Source of the DNA: Halorhabdus sp. CBA1104
GTDB taxonomy: Archaea > Halobacteriota > Halobacteria > Halobacteriales > Haloarculaceae
Length of the DNA stretch: 64,000 nucleotides
Direction: 5' to 3'
Assembly: GCF_009690625.1 (NCBI RefSeq)
Contig: NZ_CP033878.1
Span: forward strand, 682,001-746,000
Part shown: in pieces, positions 52,070 through 59,574 of the stretch
Layout of the letters: every line of letters begins with the position of its first letter
Position numbering within the stretch: the stretch's first letter is position 1
Notes under the pieces: generated by a model
Database searches by the model: none
Told to the model about the DNA's origin: nothing
Seen by the model: only the letters and a program-made list of their open reading frames with translations
Position numbers and translations under genes: made by a program

Positions 52070-53170
52070 ATGGGCGAAAAACAGTCGATTGGGATTTATT
52101 TAACCTCGATGACGATGGGGGGCGCGGAGCGTGTAGCTCGCAATTTGTGCAAGGGTCTCGTTGATTATGGATACGAAGTTGATCTGGTACTCGTTGAAGC
52201 AATGGGAGAGTTACTCGACGACCTACCGGACGCCGTATCGGTAATCGACTTGAACGCGAGCCGCGTGCTACGTAGCCTCGGTCCGTTGCGGGAGTACCTT
52301 TCGACGCGGGAACCAGACATCTTATATTCGATGATGACTGAGCCGAACGTCATCGCCGTGCTCGCTCACCGGCTTGCGGCGTCGGATTCGCGGCTCGTCG
52401 TCAGTGAACACAACATGCTCTCGCACAGTTCCGAATCTGTCAAAGACCAGCTCGCGAGATCCGGTGCTTGGGCGCTCTACCCCCTCGCAGACGATGTCGT
52501 GGCGGTTTCGGAGGGTGTACGGGATGATTTGGTGGCGAATACGCGACTCGACTCGACGGATATTTCAGTGATTTACAATCCTGTCGATGTGGAGTCGATT
52601 CGCGAACTGGCGACCCAACCAGTCTATCACAGGTGGTTCTCAGACGACTCGCTCGATGTGGTCCTCGCTGGTGGTCGGCACGAACCGCAGAAGGGTTTCG
52701 ACACGCTCCTCAAAGCGTTCTCACGAATCAGTGAGGAGGACGTTCGATTGGTGCTTTTCGGAACCGGGCCCGAGACAGAGTCGTTACAAGCCCACGCTGC
52801 AGCACTCGAAATTGACGACCACGTCTCTTTCCCCGGCTTTGTCGAGAATCCGTTCGTGTTCATGGCGTCAGCGGACGTTTTCGTCCTCTCTTCCGAGTAC
52901 GAGGGATTCGGTCTAGTACTCATTGAGGCGCTCGCTTGCGGTTGTCCGGTAGTGTCGACCGACTGCGAGAGCGGGCCTGCAGAAATCCTCGAGGGCGGGA
53001 CCTACGGCCCACTAGTCCCAGTTGGTGACGAGAACGCACTCGCAGAAGCTATTGGTGCTACACTCGCAGACGCTCCAGACCCGGATACGCTTCGGGGACG
53101 GGCGGACGATTTCGACATCGAATCGTCGATCGATCAGTACGACTCGTTGTTTCACTCGTCAGCGATCTGA
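52070..53170 (+). CDS. GT4 glycosyltransferase
   Basis: A 366-residue GT-B enzyme of family 4. The N-terminal part has SMTMGGAERVARNLCKGLVDYGYEVDLVLV and the acceptor-side domain; the C-terminal part has VLAGGRHEPQKGFDTLLKAF, VLFGTGPE, and FVLSSEYEGFGLVLIEALACGCPVVSTDCESGPAEIL, the E-x7-E retaining motif. The start at 52070 is supported by an ACTTATGT element about 30 bases upstream; the upstream in-frame ATG at 52031-52040 region lies inside that promoter. Its 3' end overlaps the next convergent gene by 19 bases. Confidence 0.85.
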   Translation: MGEKQSIGIYLTSMTMGGAERVARNLCKGLVDYGYEVDLVLVEAMGELLDDLPDAVSVIDLNASRVLRSLGPLREYLSTREPDILYSMMTEPNVIAVLAHRLAASDSRLVVSEHNMLSHSSESVKDQLARSGAWALYPLADDVVAVSEGVRDDLVANTRLDSTDISVIYNPVDVESIRELATQPVYHRWFSDDSLDVVLAGGRHEPQKGFDTLLKAFSRISEEDVRLVLFGTGPETESLQAHAAALEIDDHVSFPGFVENPFVFMASADVFVLSSEYEGFGLVLIEALACGCPVVSTDCESGPAEILEGGTYGPLVPVGDENALAEAIGATLADAPDPDTLRGRADDFDIESSIDQYDSLFHSSAI

Positions 53171-54273
53171 ATTTCCATATCTGGAAGCTCCGTCGCTGCG
53201 ACTATCGAAGAGGCCTGAAATACTGGATCAACTGCGTTCCGGGTCAACAATCCAGTCTCCGGGTCGTACGTGCGGTCGATATCCGACTGGACCCACGGGC
53301 GAAGTTCTTCTGGATCTGCATCCTCAAACGCATATAGAACTCTGGCGTGGTTGATTCCGGGGAGCATACTCCCGTACTCCGATGTCCGGTTTCTAATCTG
53401 ATCACGATACGTTTCTGTTTTCGTAAACGAAAGTGAAGACTGGATCTGATCGTGCTCCCACACGTCGTGGTCCGGGAATTTTCGTTTCAGCGTCGAGAGT
53501 GCAGCGAGGACCGTAGGATGGTATCCAAGCTCTTTCCGTCGTCGTTCGTCCGAATGCGTGTGGTATCGGGCAGCGATCTCGTTCCAGAGTAAGGGCCAAT
53601 GTCTCGGATGGCGGGCAACCGTTGGAAGAATCCTCGACAATGGTGGGCGAACGTAGTGACGGACGAGGCCATTCGAACGCGTCTGCATGTTATCTCCGAG
53701 CCTGTCAAGGAATCGAAGGACTTGCTTTTCGGCGAGTTCGGAGTGATCAGCGAGCTCTGCGGCAGCATTCGCAAAGATGATTTGATGGTTCAGAGTCCTG
53801 TCGAAGGACAGCTTCGTTCCGTCGATCTCGACTGCCTCCCACAGTCCGAGGTCTTCGTTGAACGGATGGAGAGAGAATACTTCTATTGCGGTATCGACAA
53901 GAGATTGTCTATTAAACGTCGCGCCGACACGGAAGAGACTCCGAATTGGTGCTGATTGTCCGATGAGGCCGTCGCACGCATCGCTACCTGATCTCCGTAT
54001 TTTGAAAGTATAGCAATTTGGGCGGGACTCCTTTCCAGTTAGGTAATTCGCTGCTTCAAGAATACCGTCATCAAATCCCCAATTATCCCTTGCTTCGCGT
54101 GCATATAGAAGTACCAAAATCCATCGAGAAGTATTACGGATCGGTGTCTCTCTTACGTCGTAGACACCTCCTTCGCTAGACGGAAATGAGCCGTCTTGAG
54201 CTTGAAGGCGTTCAAGAGCTAAATTGGCACTCTTTTTGATGATTTCATTGAGTGTATTGTCGTCAGAACTCAT
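53152..54273 (-). CDS. AglQ-like surface glycan cluster protein
   Basis: A 373-residue protein, predicted to form a helical toroid. Pieces such as CDGLIGQSAPIRSLFRVGA, LGLWEAVEIDGTKLSFDRTLNHQIIFANAAAELA and LDRLGDNMQTRSNGLVRHYVRPPL resemble the AglQ-type (glycoside hydrolase-like) proteins of haloarchaeal agl clusters. AglQ is needed in Haloferax for the late steps of the N-glycan, but its exact reaction is unclear. The start at 54273 is preferred over an ATG at 54327, because an AAAAATAC element just upstream of 54327 would put the transcript start between the two. It lies at the edge where DNA composition turns AT-rich. Confidence 0.6.
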   Translation of the reverse strand: MSSDDNTLNEIIKKSANLALERLQAQDGSFPSSEGGVYDVRETPIRNTSRWILVLLYAREARDNWGFDDGILEAANYLTGKESRPNCYTFKIRRSGSDACDGLIGQSAPIRSLFRVGATFNRQSLVDTAIEVFSLHPFNEDLGLWEAVEIDGTKLSFDRTLNHQIIFANAAAELADHSELAEKQVLRFLDRLGDNMQTRSNGLVRHYVRPPLSRILPTVARHPRHWPLLWNEIAARYHTHSDERRRKELGYHPTVLAALSTLKRKFPDHDVWEHDQIQSSLSFTKTETYRDQIRNRTSEYGSMLPGINHARVLYAFEDADPEELRPWVQSDIDRTYDPETGLLTRNAVDPVFQASSIVAATELPDMEIQIADE

Positions 54274-54451
54274 TTGCTGTGATTCGACGGTGGTACATTC
54301 CGGACCATTTTCATCCTTTCCATCCAAAAGTATTTTTCTCTAGGAGTCAAATCTGTATTTAGAACTCTTTACTACGTTCTCCTAACAGTTTGGAATTGAT
54401 TTGTTAGAGTCTTCGACACAAATATTAGTGCGTAGACCGTTTCCATTATAC

Positions 54452-55953
54452 ATGGAGATTTTAGTCACTGGTGCATCAGGTTTCCTTGGAAGTCGGTATC
54501 GACATCTCATGGGAAAAAATCACGACATAGTAGGTACATTTTACCAGAATTCACAACGAAAACTCGTTCAGATGGATATAACACATAAAATAATGTCGTA
54601 ACTCGAGTTCAAGACCTAAATCCAGATACGATCGTTCATACAGCTGCGATTTCAGACCCGGATACTTGCGGTCAAAATCCTGATACAGCGGTTGAACTCA
54701 ATGAGCATGGCACAAGGAATGTCGCAGAAGCAGCGAAACGAGTAGGTGCAAAGTTAGTTTATATATCAACATCATTTGTCTTTCCAGCAAACGGAACGTA
54801 TTCACCAGACGACACACCAAACCCACAGACGGTGTATGGCCAGACGAAACACAATGGAGAACAGATAGTACAAGACGAGTTGGATGACTATATTATTATT
54901 CGCTGTCCGAAGCTCTTTGGAGCGGCTGAACTCGATGGTGTGAATGAGATAACTGAATCCATACTTCAAGCGTTCACAGAAGACGGAAAGGTCGAACTTG
55001 ACGATTCAACTGAACGCTATCCGGTTTTCGTTGATGATGTTATCTCGGCAACGCAGCGGTTGCTTGATATCGATGCACAAGGAATCTACCATATTAGTAC
55101 CCACGAACCGTACACAAAATACGAATTTGGAACGCTAGTCGCCGATATCTTTGATATGGAGGGTGAGTTGATTCCAATTGAAGGGAATCCATACGTAGAT
55201 CGGCCGTCCGGTATTGAATTGGAAACGGCTGATATTGAGCGACTTGGCGTAACGATCCAACCGGTTGAGCAGGCACTCAACACTATCAAGCACCAGCGAG
55301 GGTGTTCGTTCAAGACGATCTATTCATTCAACCCAGACGAGCTAATCGAGGGCGAAAGCGCGAGTAAGATTCGCGCGCGACTCGGCCAGGAGCTCGGCCG
55401 AAACGACGATATTGAGGCAGATATCGTCGTCCCAGTCCCCGAATCGGGGATCTATCCGGCGACGGGGTATGCCGATGAAACGGGAATTCCACTGTATCAC
55501 GGGATTATTCGAGATTACGAGACTGATAAAACTCTGTACGAGCCGAATATCGAAGATCGGACCCGAATGTTGAGGAAGAAGCTTGTGGCAGTTGAAGACA
55601 TTCTCGAAGGGGAGCGAGTGGTGATCGTAGATGAAGCGGTTATATCCGGACTTACGCTCTCAGCCGTCATCGACAAATGTCAAACTGCCGGCGCGAAGGA
55701 AATTCACGTTCGAATTCCGTCACCACCAATGCGATCCAATTGTAGTTACGGTGTTCTCTCAGAGGATGCCGATTTAATCGCAACCAACGGACACAAGAAC
55801 AAAAATGAAACTGAGAGCCAGATATCCGATCAGTTCAAATTAGACAGTATCCGGTTCTTGAGTCAAGCCAAATTTGCCAAGTGTGTACCGGGTGATTTCG
55901 GGTTCACCTGTATGGACTGTTTTACAAGCGGTGAGTACGGTAGTAAACAGTAG
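54452..55953 (+). CDS. RmlD-like SDR fused to a PurF-type phosphoribosyltransferase domain, apparent frameshift
   Basis: The first half encodes an extended SDR of the dTDP-4-dehydrorhamnose reductase type: [15 protein letters not shown] (NAD loop), [24 protein letters not shown] and the catalytic YGQTK. The second half (from about residue 300) is the C-terminal PRTase part of amidophosphoribosyltransferase without the glutaminase domain: [21 protein letters not shown], the PRPP-binding [39 protein letters not shown] and [10 protein letters not shown]. In PurF the loop reads DDSIVRGTT; here Arg is lost. The frames join at an A run at 54587-54590; one more A would give 500 continuous residues, and otherwise a stop ends the first piece at 54601. 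The domain pair is unusual. A role in making a ribosyl- or polyol-phosphate precursor is possible. Confidence 0.72.
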
Positions 55954-55954
55954 T

Positions 55955-56770
55955 ATGAAATGTGCAATCTTGGCTGCTGGGCGAGGGAGTCGGCTGGGAA
56001 GCATAACAAAAACGCTTCCAAAATTCTTTTTGAATTTTGACGGGTATAGTGTATACAAAATCAAATGAGCATAGTTGAAGATTTTTGCGACGAAGTTGTA
56101 TTGGTTCTTGGCCATGGATTTGTAGAGAAAAAAGCAGGGGTCGGAAAAATTGACCAATACGGCCAAGGAACTCAAGAAAATATCCGAGACAATATTTATC
56201 ACTGTTCACACCCTGTCGTAGAGTCTGAGATCAAAATAAATAAAATAAAAGAACAGTTGGGTATATCATTTGATATTGATATTAATATTTTAGTCATTCC
56301 GTATTGGAATGAAGTTGATAATGCGGAGTCTTGTAGGCAGGCCATGAAATTTTTCCAAGATGAGAATCTGATATTACTCTCTGGAGATAGATTTCTCTCA
56401 AAATCAGTTCTAGAAAAGCAATAAACAAGTTCGACGAAGACACTATAACGGAACCATATCATATAGTATCTGCGCTCAACAGGGTAGAAAAAATAAAACA
56501 GCTGTCAATTGGGATGAATCAGGGAGAATTATACAGTATGGCGTTTTAGAAGGATATCCAGATACGGGCGTTTTTGTCATTGATGAACGACTGACCTCCG
56601 AATCTATGCGAATATTGGAGAATAATCCTGAAAAATGGTGGCCAATTATTTTCACCGAACTTCCATCATACGTTTCTACTGTAGACCCGAGCCAGCATCA
56701 TGAAATAAATATTCCCCGAGACATTCATAACCTGAGTGGCAAATCCCAAGTATTTAAATGGGGTGAGTGA
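55955..56770 (+). pseudogene. Nucleotidyltransferase gene with three apparent frameshifts
   Basis: Joined frames encode about 270 residues starting MKCAILAAGRGSRLGSITKTLPKFFLNFDG, the nucleotide-sugar pyrophosphorylase signature with G-x-G-S-R and P-K, and going on with VVLVLGHGF, ILLSGDRF, NWDESGRIIQYGVLEGYPDTGVFVID and a C-terminal MRILENNPEKWWPIIF. Breaks lie near A runs at 56063-56065, 56414-56421 and 56488-56493, and each is mended by one added base. It starts two bases after the SDR-PRTase gene and resembles LicC/cytidylyltransferase-type enzymes, so it may activate a phosphorylated polyol or sugar with CTP for the transferase at 56828. It is either decayed or damaged by sequencing error. 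Confidence 0.7.
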
Positions 56771-56827: not shown

Positions 56828-58078
56828 TCAGTCGATCACTTTTTCGAAGATTCTCTTACTAGCATTTCCATCTGCATGTTCAAAGAACTGATCTCGAATC
56901 TCCTGACGGCGGCCCGCATATTCATCGACGCCATTCACATTGGATTCAAGCTGTTCGAGCAACTCCTCAAAGTTGTTCACCCGGGGACCAGCGATGACGT
57001 TCTCATAATTAGGGTGGACCCCTCGTATCTCTTCATAAGTACTGTGGTCTGGTGTGTAGAAAATAACTGGTCGATCCAACAAGAGAAAGTCGAAGTAGAT
57101 CGACGAGTAATCAGTGATGAGAATATCTATCTCCGTCAGGAATTGGTGTGAATCGGTATCTGAATTAATAAGCTGGATTGAGTTACTCTCGCTAATTCCT
57201 TCACCGATGTCAAGATCTCTATGCGGCTTGATCAGTAGTTTTGCGCTATTCTGTTGAAGAAATTCTTCAGTTCGGCGCACGTCGAGTATCGTGTTGAGAT
57301 CAAGCCCTTGCCCCTCTCTTCGGGTGGGGAAATACCCAATTACCACATCAGACTGCTCAATATCTAATTGGTCTCGATCCGTATCTATACCTTCGATAGT
57401 ATTCACATCATTGACTATAGCGTCAGTTTTGGGATATCCTGTGTAGATCGATGTCCCTTCGCTCAAGCCAGTATTGAGAAATCCTGCTTCAACTCCAGAA
57501 TCAAAATACTCTCGGAAATGAGTTTCACAATATTGTGAACTGAAGACTGCATAGTCCGCACTATTCCAAGAAGCCATATCAACTAACAGGTTATCCGCTG
57601 AAGTGTGATTATCTGCCTTTAATGGAATCCCATGGCCCATTTGAATGACGGTTGCTCCGCCAGTACACCACCACGAAATGGCACCAGGTCCTGCATCAAT
57701 GGGTATGTATCCTGCACGGAGAGTATAATAACGTGCTTTCAGAGAATTTGCTGGGTAAACTTCGTATCCCATTTTTGACAGAGTTTCGTATAGCTCGCGA
57801 GACCTTGCCAACCAGATGGGTCGAATTTCATAGCAGCCGTCTTTTTCTAAGTATTGAAATAGATATCGCCGATTTTGCGAAAATTCTTGTCCAGAAGGGA
57901 AGTCTGAGAATACCCAGATCTGCTCATTTCTCCCCACCATCTGTGTGTATAGAGACACTAGTAGAAATAGGGGAAGAGTTATATAATACTTATATGATAA
58001 GAACCGTGTAGTTCTGATTATTAACTGGATCAATCCTTGATTTCTGATTATAGTGGTGATTTCACGCAGTCGTACCAT
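56828..58078 (-). CDS. CDP-glycerol glycerophosphotransferase-family protein (TagB/TagF-like)
   Basis: A 416-residue enzyme of the Glyphos_transf family, which transfers polyol phosphates from CDP-glycerol or CDP-ribitol in teichoic acid synthesis. A hydrophobic segment at about residues 31-49 could anchor it to the membrane. The catalytic part has VIQMGHGIPLK, VIGYFPTRREG, LLIKPHRDL, and the signature ILITDYSSIYFDFLLLDRPVIFYTPD followed by RGVHPNYENVIAGP. The nearby nucleotidyltransferase could make its CDP-linked donor. Base use is AT-richer than the core of the window, as in its neighbours. Confidence 0.85.
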   Translation of the reverse strand: MVRLREITTIIRNQGLIQLIIRTTRFLSYKYYITLPLFLLVSLYTQMVGRNEQIWVFSDFPSGQEFSQNRRYLFQYLEKDGCYEIRPIWLARSRELYETLSKMGYEVYPANSLKARYYTLRAGYIPIDAGPGAISWWCTGGATVIQMGHGIPLKADNHTSADNLLVDMASWNSADYAVFSSQYCETHFREYFDSGVEAGFLNTGLSEGTSIYTGYPKTDAIVNDVNTIEGIDTDRDQLDIEQSDVVIGYFPTRREGQGLDLNTILDVRRTEEFLQQNSAKLLIKPHRDLDIGEGISESNSIQLINSDTDSHQFLTEIDILITDYSSIYFDFLLLDRPVIFYTPDHSTYEEIRGVHPNYENVIAGPRVNNFEELLEQLESNVNGVDEYAGRRQEIRDQFFEHADGNASKRIFEKVID

Positions 58079-58155: not shown

Positions 58156-59513
58156 CTACAAATACCCCATGTTCTCTAACTGTGTCCTTGTGCTCGAAGA
58201 GAGCTCAGATTCATCCTTAGATGGGATTTTCATTAGCCTCTCCAAATGTTTGTCCAACTCTTTGGCGAGCCCCGTGCCACTATCACCCGCAAATTCCCAA
58301 CTCGCCTTCTCCGGCGCATACACGAGCTTCGACGAGGGAGACTTCCAGATAGCATACTGCTCGAACGGGGGATAGTCGGACTCGGGGAACTCGAGGTTAT
58401 CAGTCGATTCCAGGAGGTGTACGAATGCCGACTCGCGAGATTGCTCCAATAGCGAGATACTGTTCGTCTCGGGGACATCCAACCCAGCCATCTCAAGGAT
58501 AGTCGGATACAGGTAGTTCAGCTGCACGACGTCACGACGCCGCCCCGTTTCTAGTTGCCCAGTCGGATCGTGAACGAGCAACGGTACGCGGATCAATTCG
58601 TCGGCCAGAGAGTACGAATGCCCGAACATCCCATCCTCTCCGATCAAGTCGCCGTGATCGCCGAACAGGACGATCACCGTATTCTCGTACTCGCCCAAGG
58701 ACTTCAGTCGGGCAATCAATCGCTCGATGAGCGCATCCGCGTGCAGAATCGAAGCCCGATACAGGTCCTTTGTTAGATCGAGGCGATTCTGGTCGATTTC
58801 GTATCGTCCCGTGTAGACCTCGTGGCGTTTGTCCTTGAGAGTCTCCTGATAGCGAACGTTCTCGTGGAGTTCTCTAACTCCTCGATCGCCGAACTCGCGA
58901 TAGTACTTGATGTGCGGACGATAGACGTGGTGGACGTCGTTCAAGTGGACCATGTAACAGAACGGCGAATTTCGCTCCTCTAGGCGTTTGAAGCAGTTTT
59001 TCACTGTCCTAAGTCCCTTGTACCGATGCCTGAAAAACGCTTTCCGCCCCTTCACCAGAGGTGCTTCCAGAACTTACTTCGCGCCCTTCACAAACTGGCG
59101 TCGATTGCGTTCGTCGACCCCCTGACGGATATTCGAGATTCCGGATCCGATCATTCCCGGCATTCTCGTGTGCTCGTGTTCGAACCCACGCGTCATCCCA
59201 CCGGATTTGAACCACCCGTTATGGGTGAACGAACGCGTTTCGTAGCCCGCTTCACTGAGAAGTTCGGCGAATGTCGGATGGTCCCCGAGTACTGTGTTCT
59301 CGTCGTTGACTTGGTGTTCTGTCGGATACAGGCCGGTAAAGATGGAGGTATGAACGGGAAGGGTCACATCGACAAGGGGCTCGCGCGTTCAAATACAGTC
59401 GACTCTTCGGCGAAATCGAGGAAGTCCAGCGTATCTTCTGATTCGTTCAGAAACGAACAGAAGTCATACCGGAGACTATCGACCGAAATGAGAAGGAAAT
59501 TCGGATCAGGCAT
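58156..59513 (-). pseudogene. Sulfatase/phosphotransferase-superfamily gene, frameshifted and with an internal stop
   Basis: Joined frames give about 452 residues: MPDPNFLLISVDSLRYDF with the first metal Asp, then ERASPL and VTLPVHTSIFTGLYPTEH, DRGVRELHENV and VIVLFGDHGDLIGEDGMFGHSY with the late metal Asp-His pair. The residue nine before the TG of IFTG, where sulfatases have Cys or Ser, is Thr. One frameshift lies at the run of four C (plus-strand G at 59376-59379); a fifth C restores the frame. A separate in-frame TAA at 59074-59076 follows QFVKGAK. The single homopolymer error could be artefact, but the stop codon makes real inactivation more likely. It resembles the intact enzyme at 61671. 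Confidence 0.7.
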
Positions 59514-59574
59514 ATCCGTGACTCGTAGTCAACAGTCAATATGGTTTTGAAATATGAGAGTGAGCTTGATCTCT

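Follow-up and report, generated by a model that had tools for sequence, protein, structure and literature searches.

An RmlD-like reductase fused to a glutaminase-less PurF-type phosphoribosyltransferase half in haloarchaeal surface-glycan loci, with a frameshifted copy in Halorhabdus sp. CBA1104

Introduction

Transfer of ribofuranose into glycans at the expense of PRPP, followed by dephosphorylation by a HAD phosphatase, has been described for Bcs3, for the gPRT/PRP enzymes and for Cj1432 (PMC10299916, PMC11231755, PMC11127046, PMC12409886). PRPP-fed glycan synthesis is therefore already known in bacteria, by way of a phosphoribosyltransferase (PRTase) lineage different from the one considered here. 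The PRTase of purine synthesis, PurF, pairs its PRPP site with an Ntn glutaminase; mutation of D432, D433 or S434 in the PRPP loop of AtGPRAT2 lowers activity (PMC7056826), and Ile335 in the flexible loop of E. coli PurF helps to wall the ammonia channel (PMC7953260). An open-access literature search for glycan synthesis by a PRTase that resembles PurF or lacks the glutaminase returned nothing relevant.

Here we analyze such a candidate in a 64,000-nucleotide stretch (the window; G000:C1:682001-746000) of a complete 2.63 Mb haloarchaeal chromosome, from a family that also contains Halorientalis persicus, where an RmlD-like short-chain reductase (SDR) is joined to a PRTase half of PurF type.

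Results

An initial annotation made from the letters alone had read positions 54452-55953 of the window as one fused gene. The fused architecture stands; the single intact reading frame does not, a frameshift having been missed. The interval holds 1502 bases, a number indivisible by 3, and so cannot be a single ORF (Table 1). Nucleotide alignment with the closest relative, G059, places a single-base deletion in the window (CATAAA-ATAATG against CATAAAGATAGC), and the first 44 amino acids are 75% identical to the G059 protein in one frame, the other ~450 being 74% identical in the next. The nucleotide-binding TGxxGxxG and catalytic YxxxK motifs consequently fall in different frames, and automatic gene calling would place the start at GTG 54832, which is an internal valine codon, and lose the Rossmann half. 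No homologue has a stop at the frameshift site. Between the window and G059 both halves are under purifying selection (dN/dS 0.08 over the SDR, 0.10 over the PRTase), so that the gene was selected until recently or the missing base is a sequencing error.

Table 1. Features of the fusion gene and its immediate neighbors, in window coordinates.
Feature	Position	Strand	Remarks
RmlD-like SDR half, N-terminal part	54452..54589	+	Frame 1; ATG 54452; ends DITHK; nucleotide-binding motif TGxSGFLG
Frameshift site	54589..54601	+	1 base fewer than G059, within AAAA run; TAA 54599-54601
Remainder of RmlD-like SDR half	54589..55293	+	Shifted frame; catalytic Tyr/Lys (YGQTK) at 54835/54847
PurF-type PRTase half without glutaminase	55294..55953	+	Shifted frame, same as SDR remainder
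Cys codons matching PurF Fe-S ligands	55303, 55741, 55909, 55918	+	Within PRTase half
PRPP loop DEAVISGLT	from 55630	+	PRTase half
Rewritten flexible loop	about 55510-55539	+	PRTase half
NTP-transferase-like remnant	55955..56767	+	Starts MKCAILAAGRGSRLG; split over several frames, pieces 56050-56421 and 56414-56767
Glyphos_transf (PF04464, CDP-glycerol:glycerophosphotransferase)	56828..58078	-	Intact; convergent to fusion

Downstream of the frameshift the window protein matches RmlD (Pfam PF04321, 5.5e-40), and its second half matches the PRTase half of PurF (TIGR01134, 2e-35, profile positions 228-429), with PF00156 also above cut-off; sequence searches of the PDB lead from the first half to MAT2beta/RmlD and from the second to PurF. 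The double match is no chance effect. All members carry the RmlD domain at the N-terminus, and none of the fusions gives a glutaminase (GATase) match. A profile combining the fusions with ordinary PurFs retrieves PurF structures from the PDB at 1e-79, other PRTase-fold proteins following from 1e-4 on. Modeled by itself, the PRTase half (pLDDT 74, pTM 0.78) retrieves PurF chains at ranks 1-17 (TM 0.68-0.73 by query), other PRTases scoring below 0.5; Bcs3 is absent both from the PDB sequence matches and from the top fold matches of this half. The full-length model is mediocre (pLDDT 70, pTM 0.46). The domain reading of the initial annotation is thereby borne out, with the C-terminal half assigned to the PRTase half of PurF by TIGR01134, the PDB matches and the half model, the Ntn glutaminase missing, and a sugar-nucleotide reductase placed in front. 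By membership, the profiles indicate that the fusions are not PurF: the glutaminase is absent and the TIGR01134 scores (window 123 bits, G653 63 bits) lie below the purF cut-off of 350 bits. Scores for TIGR01214 likewise fall short of the rmlD cut-off of 224 (the truncated window copy reaches 125 and G653 158). The SDR half of G059 keeps both the NAD(P)-binding and the catalytic motif (TGASGFLG and YGQTK).

Four members of the fusion family were found: the window copy, G059 (75% identical to it), Halorientalis persicus IBRC-M 10043 (G252; 64%) and G653, which belongs to another family (34%). Among sampled genomes the fusion is rare, occurring in 3 of 146 at the level of the family, 3 of 382 of the order and 2 of 393 of the phylum. 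It is intact, at about 495 amino acids, in the three other haloarchaeal genomes, which represent two families; since these three further copies are whole, the fusion is not an assembly accident, and an artificial join as its origin is ruled out. The search for the joint architecture in archaeal genomes, which the initial annotation had proposed as a check, thus finds it elsewhere, and not always as two separate genes. The host has a separate, ordinary purF-type gene (C1:669902-670525); descent from the host's own PurF is unsupported, the fusions forming a single clade that excludes 31 haloarchaeal PurFs. A grouping of fusions and haloarchaeal PurFs to the exclusion of three bacterial-type PurFs was not rejected (AU p 0.113), the branches being long. 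The fusion is absent from IMG/VR and from the phage and plasmid collections, and a scan of genome contigs with SDR patterns alone recovered the Halorientalis fusion, SDR-only relatives and one ordinary PurF, with no bacterial fusion. A PurF paralogue with PRPP loop DEALIRGDT lies near nodU on Bradyrhizobium guangxiense plasmid p53363 (L103:6230-9417), followed by a HAD gene and a hydroxyisobutyrate-dehydrogenase-like gene, so that PurF may serve a specialized role in this symbiosis region. The paralogue was rejected as a parallel: a weak GATase-like domain is retained, and neither its HAD nor its dehydrogenase is related.

The active site of the fusions was aligned against 34 PurFs, with numbering that begins at the Ile of MDILITG (adding 2 gives protein numbering); the first few aligned residues ahead of CSF are an alignment artefact. 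Four cysteines (C283, C429, C485 and C488 in alignment numbering), common to at least 94% of the PurFs, are invariant in all four fusions and correspond to the 4Fe-4S cysteines of Bacillus-class PurF, making them putative cluster ligands. The PPi loop (P-x-SG) is retained, as is the general type I PRPP motif, DEAVxSGxT, in which two acidic residues precede S/T-G-x-T. The four cysteines persist even in the divergent G653 copy, together with the motif (as DEAVLSGKT) and the RTLY of the flexible loop. Within the PRPP loop, DDSIVRGTT of PurF has become DEAVISGLT. The initial annotation had singled out loss of the Arg in this loop; the loss is real (RGTT to SGLT), but it was over-read and says little on PRPP use, as this Arg is specific to PurF and lies outside the general type I motif. 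Its expectations of PRPP-binding residues in the second domain and of PRPP as the substrate are probably right, to judge from the elements kept in the alignment. At the positions of AtGPRAT2 D432, D433 and S434 the fusions have D, E and A; because these residues are only partly kept, catalysis could be altered. A better sign of changed chemistry may be the flexible loop, where KNRYVGRTFI of PurF is replaced by RDYETEKTLY or KQQLRKRTLY and Tyr aligns with Ile335; the three close members share a conserved version of this loop, without drift. We infer that the PRTase half is a PRPP site with altered acceptor chemistry.

The window fusion sits among glycosyltransferase, CDP-glycerol-transferase and sulfatase-family genes, and the host purF is elsewhere, in agreement with the surface-glycan rather than purine context first proposed. 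The ortholog of the window Glyphos_transf in G059 (62-63% identity) is likewise convergent to the fusion, and a homologue (35%) lies in the G653 fusion cluster, so that the suggested co-occurrence with CDP-glycerol-type transferases holds in three of the four loci; at the window-G059 level of similarity the gene was found in 2 of 142 genomes of the family, both fusion carriers. H. persicus has a LicD-family gene in its place within the 20 kb read. Both G059 and H. persicus encode a KdsC-like HAD protein (motifs DxDG, SSD and GDDxxD all present) 3' of the fusion with an ATGA overlap; the next gene product joins an NTP-transferase part to an APH-like part. Away from the fusion, no close relative of either protein was found in the sampled genomes, G055 and G072 giving just weak matches to the kinase half, and the window genome likewise has no such relative. 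The G653 fusion is overlapped by an NTP transferase gene, after which come genes for a cupin, a P-loop kinase and a HAD-like protein (DFDG motif alone by eye, no Pfam match), with Glyphos_transf in the same-strand cluster. Profile support for the kinase and nucleotidyltransferase assignments is weak (APH E=0.0015; LicC in the PDB E=0.013), and in the window NTP-transferase remnant just the first piece matches a family, PF12804 at E=5e-4, under cut-off. Neither a CDP-glycerol or CDP-ribitol synthase recognizable by family name nor an rmlABC set was found among the genes read in the fusion loci, no glutaminase gene was seen in the clusters read, and no Rfam family lies in the 53-60 kb region of the window.

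Other genes of these regions deserve mention. Two families without a functional name are common to the H. persicus and G653 clusters (L036:6834-7673 and L036:8574-10187 against L107:14062-14958 and L107:14987-16579; ~280-300 and 530 amino acids, 29-30% identity). Divergent to the window fusion is an ORF of 391 amino acids (53152-54327, minus strand) with no Pfam/NCBIfam family and no tblastn match in related clusters. Further haloarchaeal clusters (L091:7296-11323 and L092:8650-11074) have a nucleotidyltransferase adjoining an APH-like fused protein, the L091 cluster additionally having an EcbF/BcbF-type capsule phosphatase.

The GC content of the window falls to 41-45% between 54.0 and 58.5 kb, against 61% for the window as a whole; the corresponding block of G059 has 39-44%, with neighbors at 63-67%, and the NTP-kinase gene of H. 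persicus has 48%. Low GC of the block in both the window and G059 suggests a shared mobile block, and it looks as if this block is decaying in the window. Transposase-like ORFs recognized by eye around the clusters (L036:48-737, L032:10321-10791 and L091:11824-12498) fit a mobile block. Beside the fusion, a sulfatase-family gene (58159-59528, minus strand) is interrupted by a change of frame near 59367-59388 and by a stop codon in frame near 59074-59076, which also points to decay.

Discussion

The window copy has most likely been inactivated recently and is now a relic, given the frameshift, the decayed nucleotidyltransferase adjoining it and the lack of close HAD and kinase partners in this complete genome. 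We consider it unlikely that the gene is functional and that its frameshift reflects faulty sequencing or programmed -1 frameshifting on the AAAA run. In favor of this, just one base is lost, it falls within four consecutive A, and the remainder is under purifying selection with no further stop; but the sulfatase-family gene nearby is broken as well as the nucleotidyltransferase, the partners are missing, and a shift at that site is seen in no homologue.

For the intact fusions we propose, tentatively and with slightly less than even confidence, a pathway that converts PRPP to a CDP-activated unit, derived from ribose, for a phosphodiester surface polymer. The binding of PRPP, the sequence of reactions, the CDP carrier and the product are all inferred; the main support for the proposal is the recurrence of a phosphatase, a kinase, a nucleotidyltransferase and a phospho-alcohol transferase, with unrelated proteins filling the kinase and phosphatase roles. 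The PurF-derived half would bind PRPP and let a nucleophile not supplied by a fused glutaminase displace pyrophosphate, and the RmlD-like half would use NAD(P)H to act on the same intermediate. The HAD phosphatase would then remove the 5-phosphate, the small-alcohol kinase add phosphate elsewhere, the LicC/IspD-like nucleotidyltransferase form the CDP-activated unit, and the TagF/LicD-type transferase attach the phospho-unit to the glycan. Judging by the partner genes, the probable product is such a CDP-activated, phosphodiester-linked unit rather than the simple ribosyl-phosphate initially envisaged. The more specific version, in which a PurF PRTase freed from its glutaminase has taken a new acceptor and, fused to the reductase, feeds a hitherto undescribed CDP-activated ribose-derived alcohol into a teichoic-acid-like polymer built by TagF-like enzymes, is doubtful.

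Competing accounts of the chemistry differ in which partners they explain. If the PRTase half were itself a glycan phosphoribosyltransferase, ribofuranose-5-phosphate would pass directly from PRPP to the glycan, the HAD would take off the 5-phosphate and the SDR would make another sugar. Bcs3 CriT/CrpP and gPRT/PRP (PMC10299916, PMC11231755, PMC11127046, PMC12409886) are precedents, and PRTase and HAD share one operon. We nevertheless judge this distinctly unlikely, since the PRTase is of PurF type, its profile finding PurF at 1e-79 without Bcs3 being listed, the HAD is short (158 amino acids) and KdsC-like whereas CrpP has a large helical cap (PMC10299916), and the operon's kinase and nucleotidyltransferase would be superfluous. 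The PurF ancestry with its retained Fe-S cysteines, the joining of reductase and PRTase, and the CDP-alcohol-like partner genes would all suit an improbable route that gives the aminoribose idea of the initial annotation a specific form: the PurF reaction, run with free or partner-supplied NH3, yields phosphoribosylamine, whose open-chain imine the reductase converts to 1-amino-1-deoxyribitol phosphate, to be dephosphorylated, re-phosphorylated and CDP-activated. To our knowledge, however, relatives of RmlD act on ketosugars and not on imines, which counts against this route. The PurF-conserved KNRYVGRTFI loop, with Ile335 of the ammonia-channel wall (PMC7953260), is moreover replaced in the fusions, and the clusters read offer no glutaminase gene as an ammonia source. 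Use of the PRTase half as a PRPP sensor that tunes the reductase to the nucleotide state, like the PurR/PyrR uses of the fold, would fit the closest SDR in the PDB search, MAT2beta, which is a regulatory subunit. Two of the three PRPP-loop residues tested in AtGPRAT2 are also changed (D, E, A for D, D, S; PMC7056826), but a flexible loop conserved in the three close members rather than drifting, catalytic SDR motifs that are retained, and recurring phosphatase and kinase partners leave a sensor very improbable.

Our preferred reading, the CDP-activated ribose-derived unit, can be set against four described systems. The B. subtilis-type 4Fe-4S PurF (1ao0, 1gph, 6lbp) shares with the fusions a full-length PRTase domain (123 bits with TIGR01134), the four cysteines at Fe-S positions, the PPi loop and the frame of the PRPP loop; unlike PurF, the fusions have an SDR where the Ntn glutaminase would be, carry changed PRPP and flexible loops, and lie outside a purine locus in a host that keeps its own purF. 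RmlD dTDP-4-dehydrorhamnose reductase and MAT2beta have the same fold and the TGxSGFLG and YxxxK motifs, but here the TIGR01214 score is under cut-off, a PRTase is fused on, and the loci read have no rmlA/B/C set. CDP-alcohol pathways, namely those of teichoic acid (TagF/TarL) and phosphocholine (LicA-LicC-LicD), resemble the fusion loci in the kinase, nucleotidyltransferase and Glyphos_transf or LicD around the fusion, and differ in that the building block would derive from PRPP here. The glycan phosphoribosyltransferases (Bcs3 CriT/CrpP, Klebsiella ORF5-O4, C. jejuni Cj1432) are alike by context, in that a PRTase, here predicted to consume PRPP, accompanies a HAD protein in a surface-glycan locus; the HAD partner seen in gPRT/PRP is present in G059 and Halorientalis and absent from the window genome. 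They are unlike the fusion system in PRTase lineage and HAD type, and the latter adds an SDR, a kinase and a nucleotidyltransferase.

A textbook purine enzyme has seemingly been dismantled and reused for an archaeal cell-surface polymer, retaining its Fe-S cysteines while its ammonia-channel loop was remodeled. Should the product prove to be a CDP-activated ribose derivative, this would speak for a teichoic-acid-like polymer in haloarchaea and offer a clean case of a changed attacker on PRPP. In outline the fusion system resembles the PRPP-fed glycan pathways, but its PRTase is, by its sequence relationships, of PurF ancestry.
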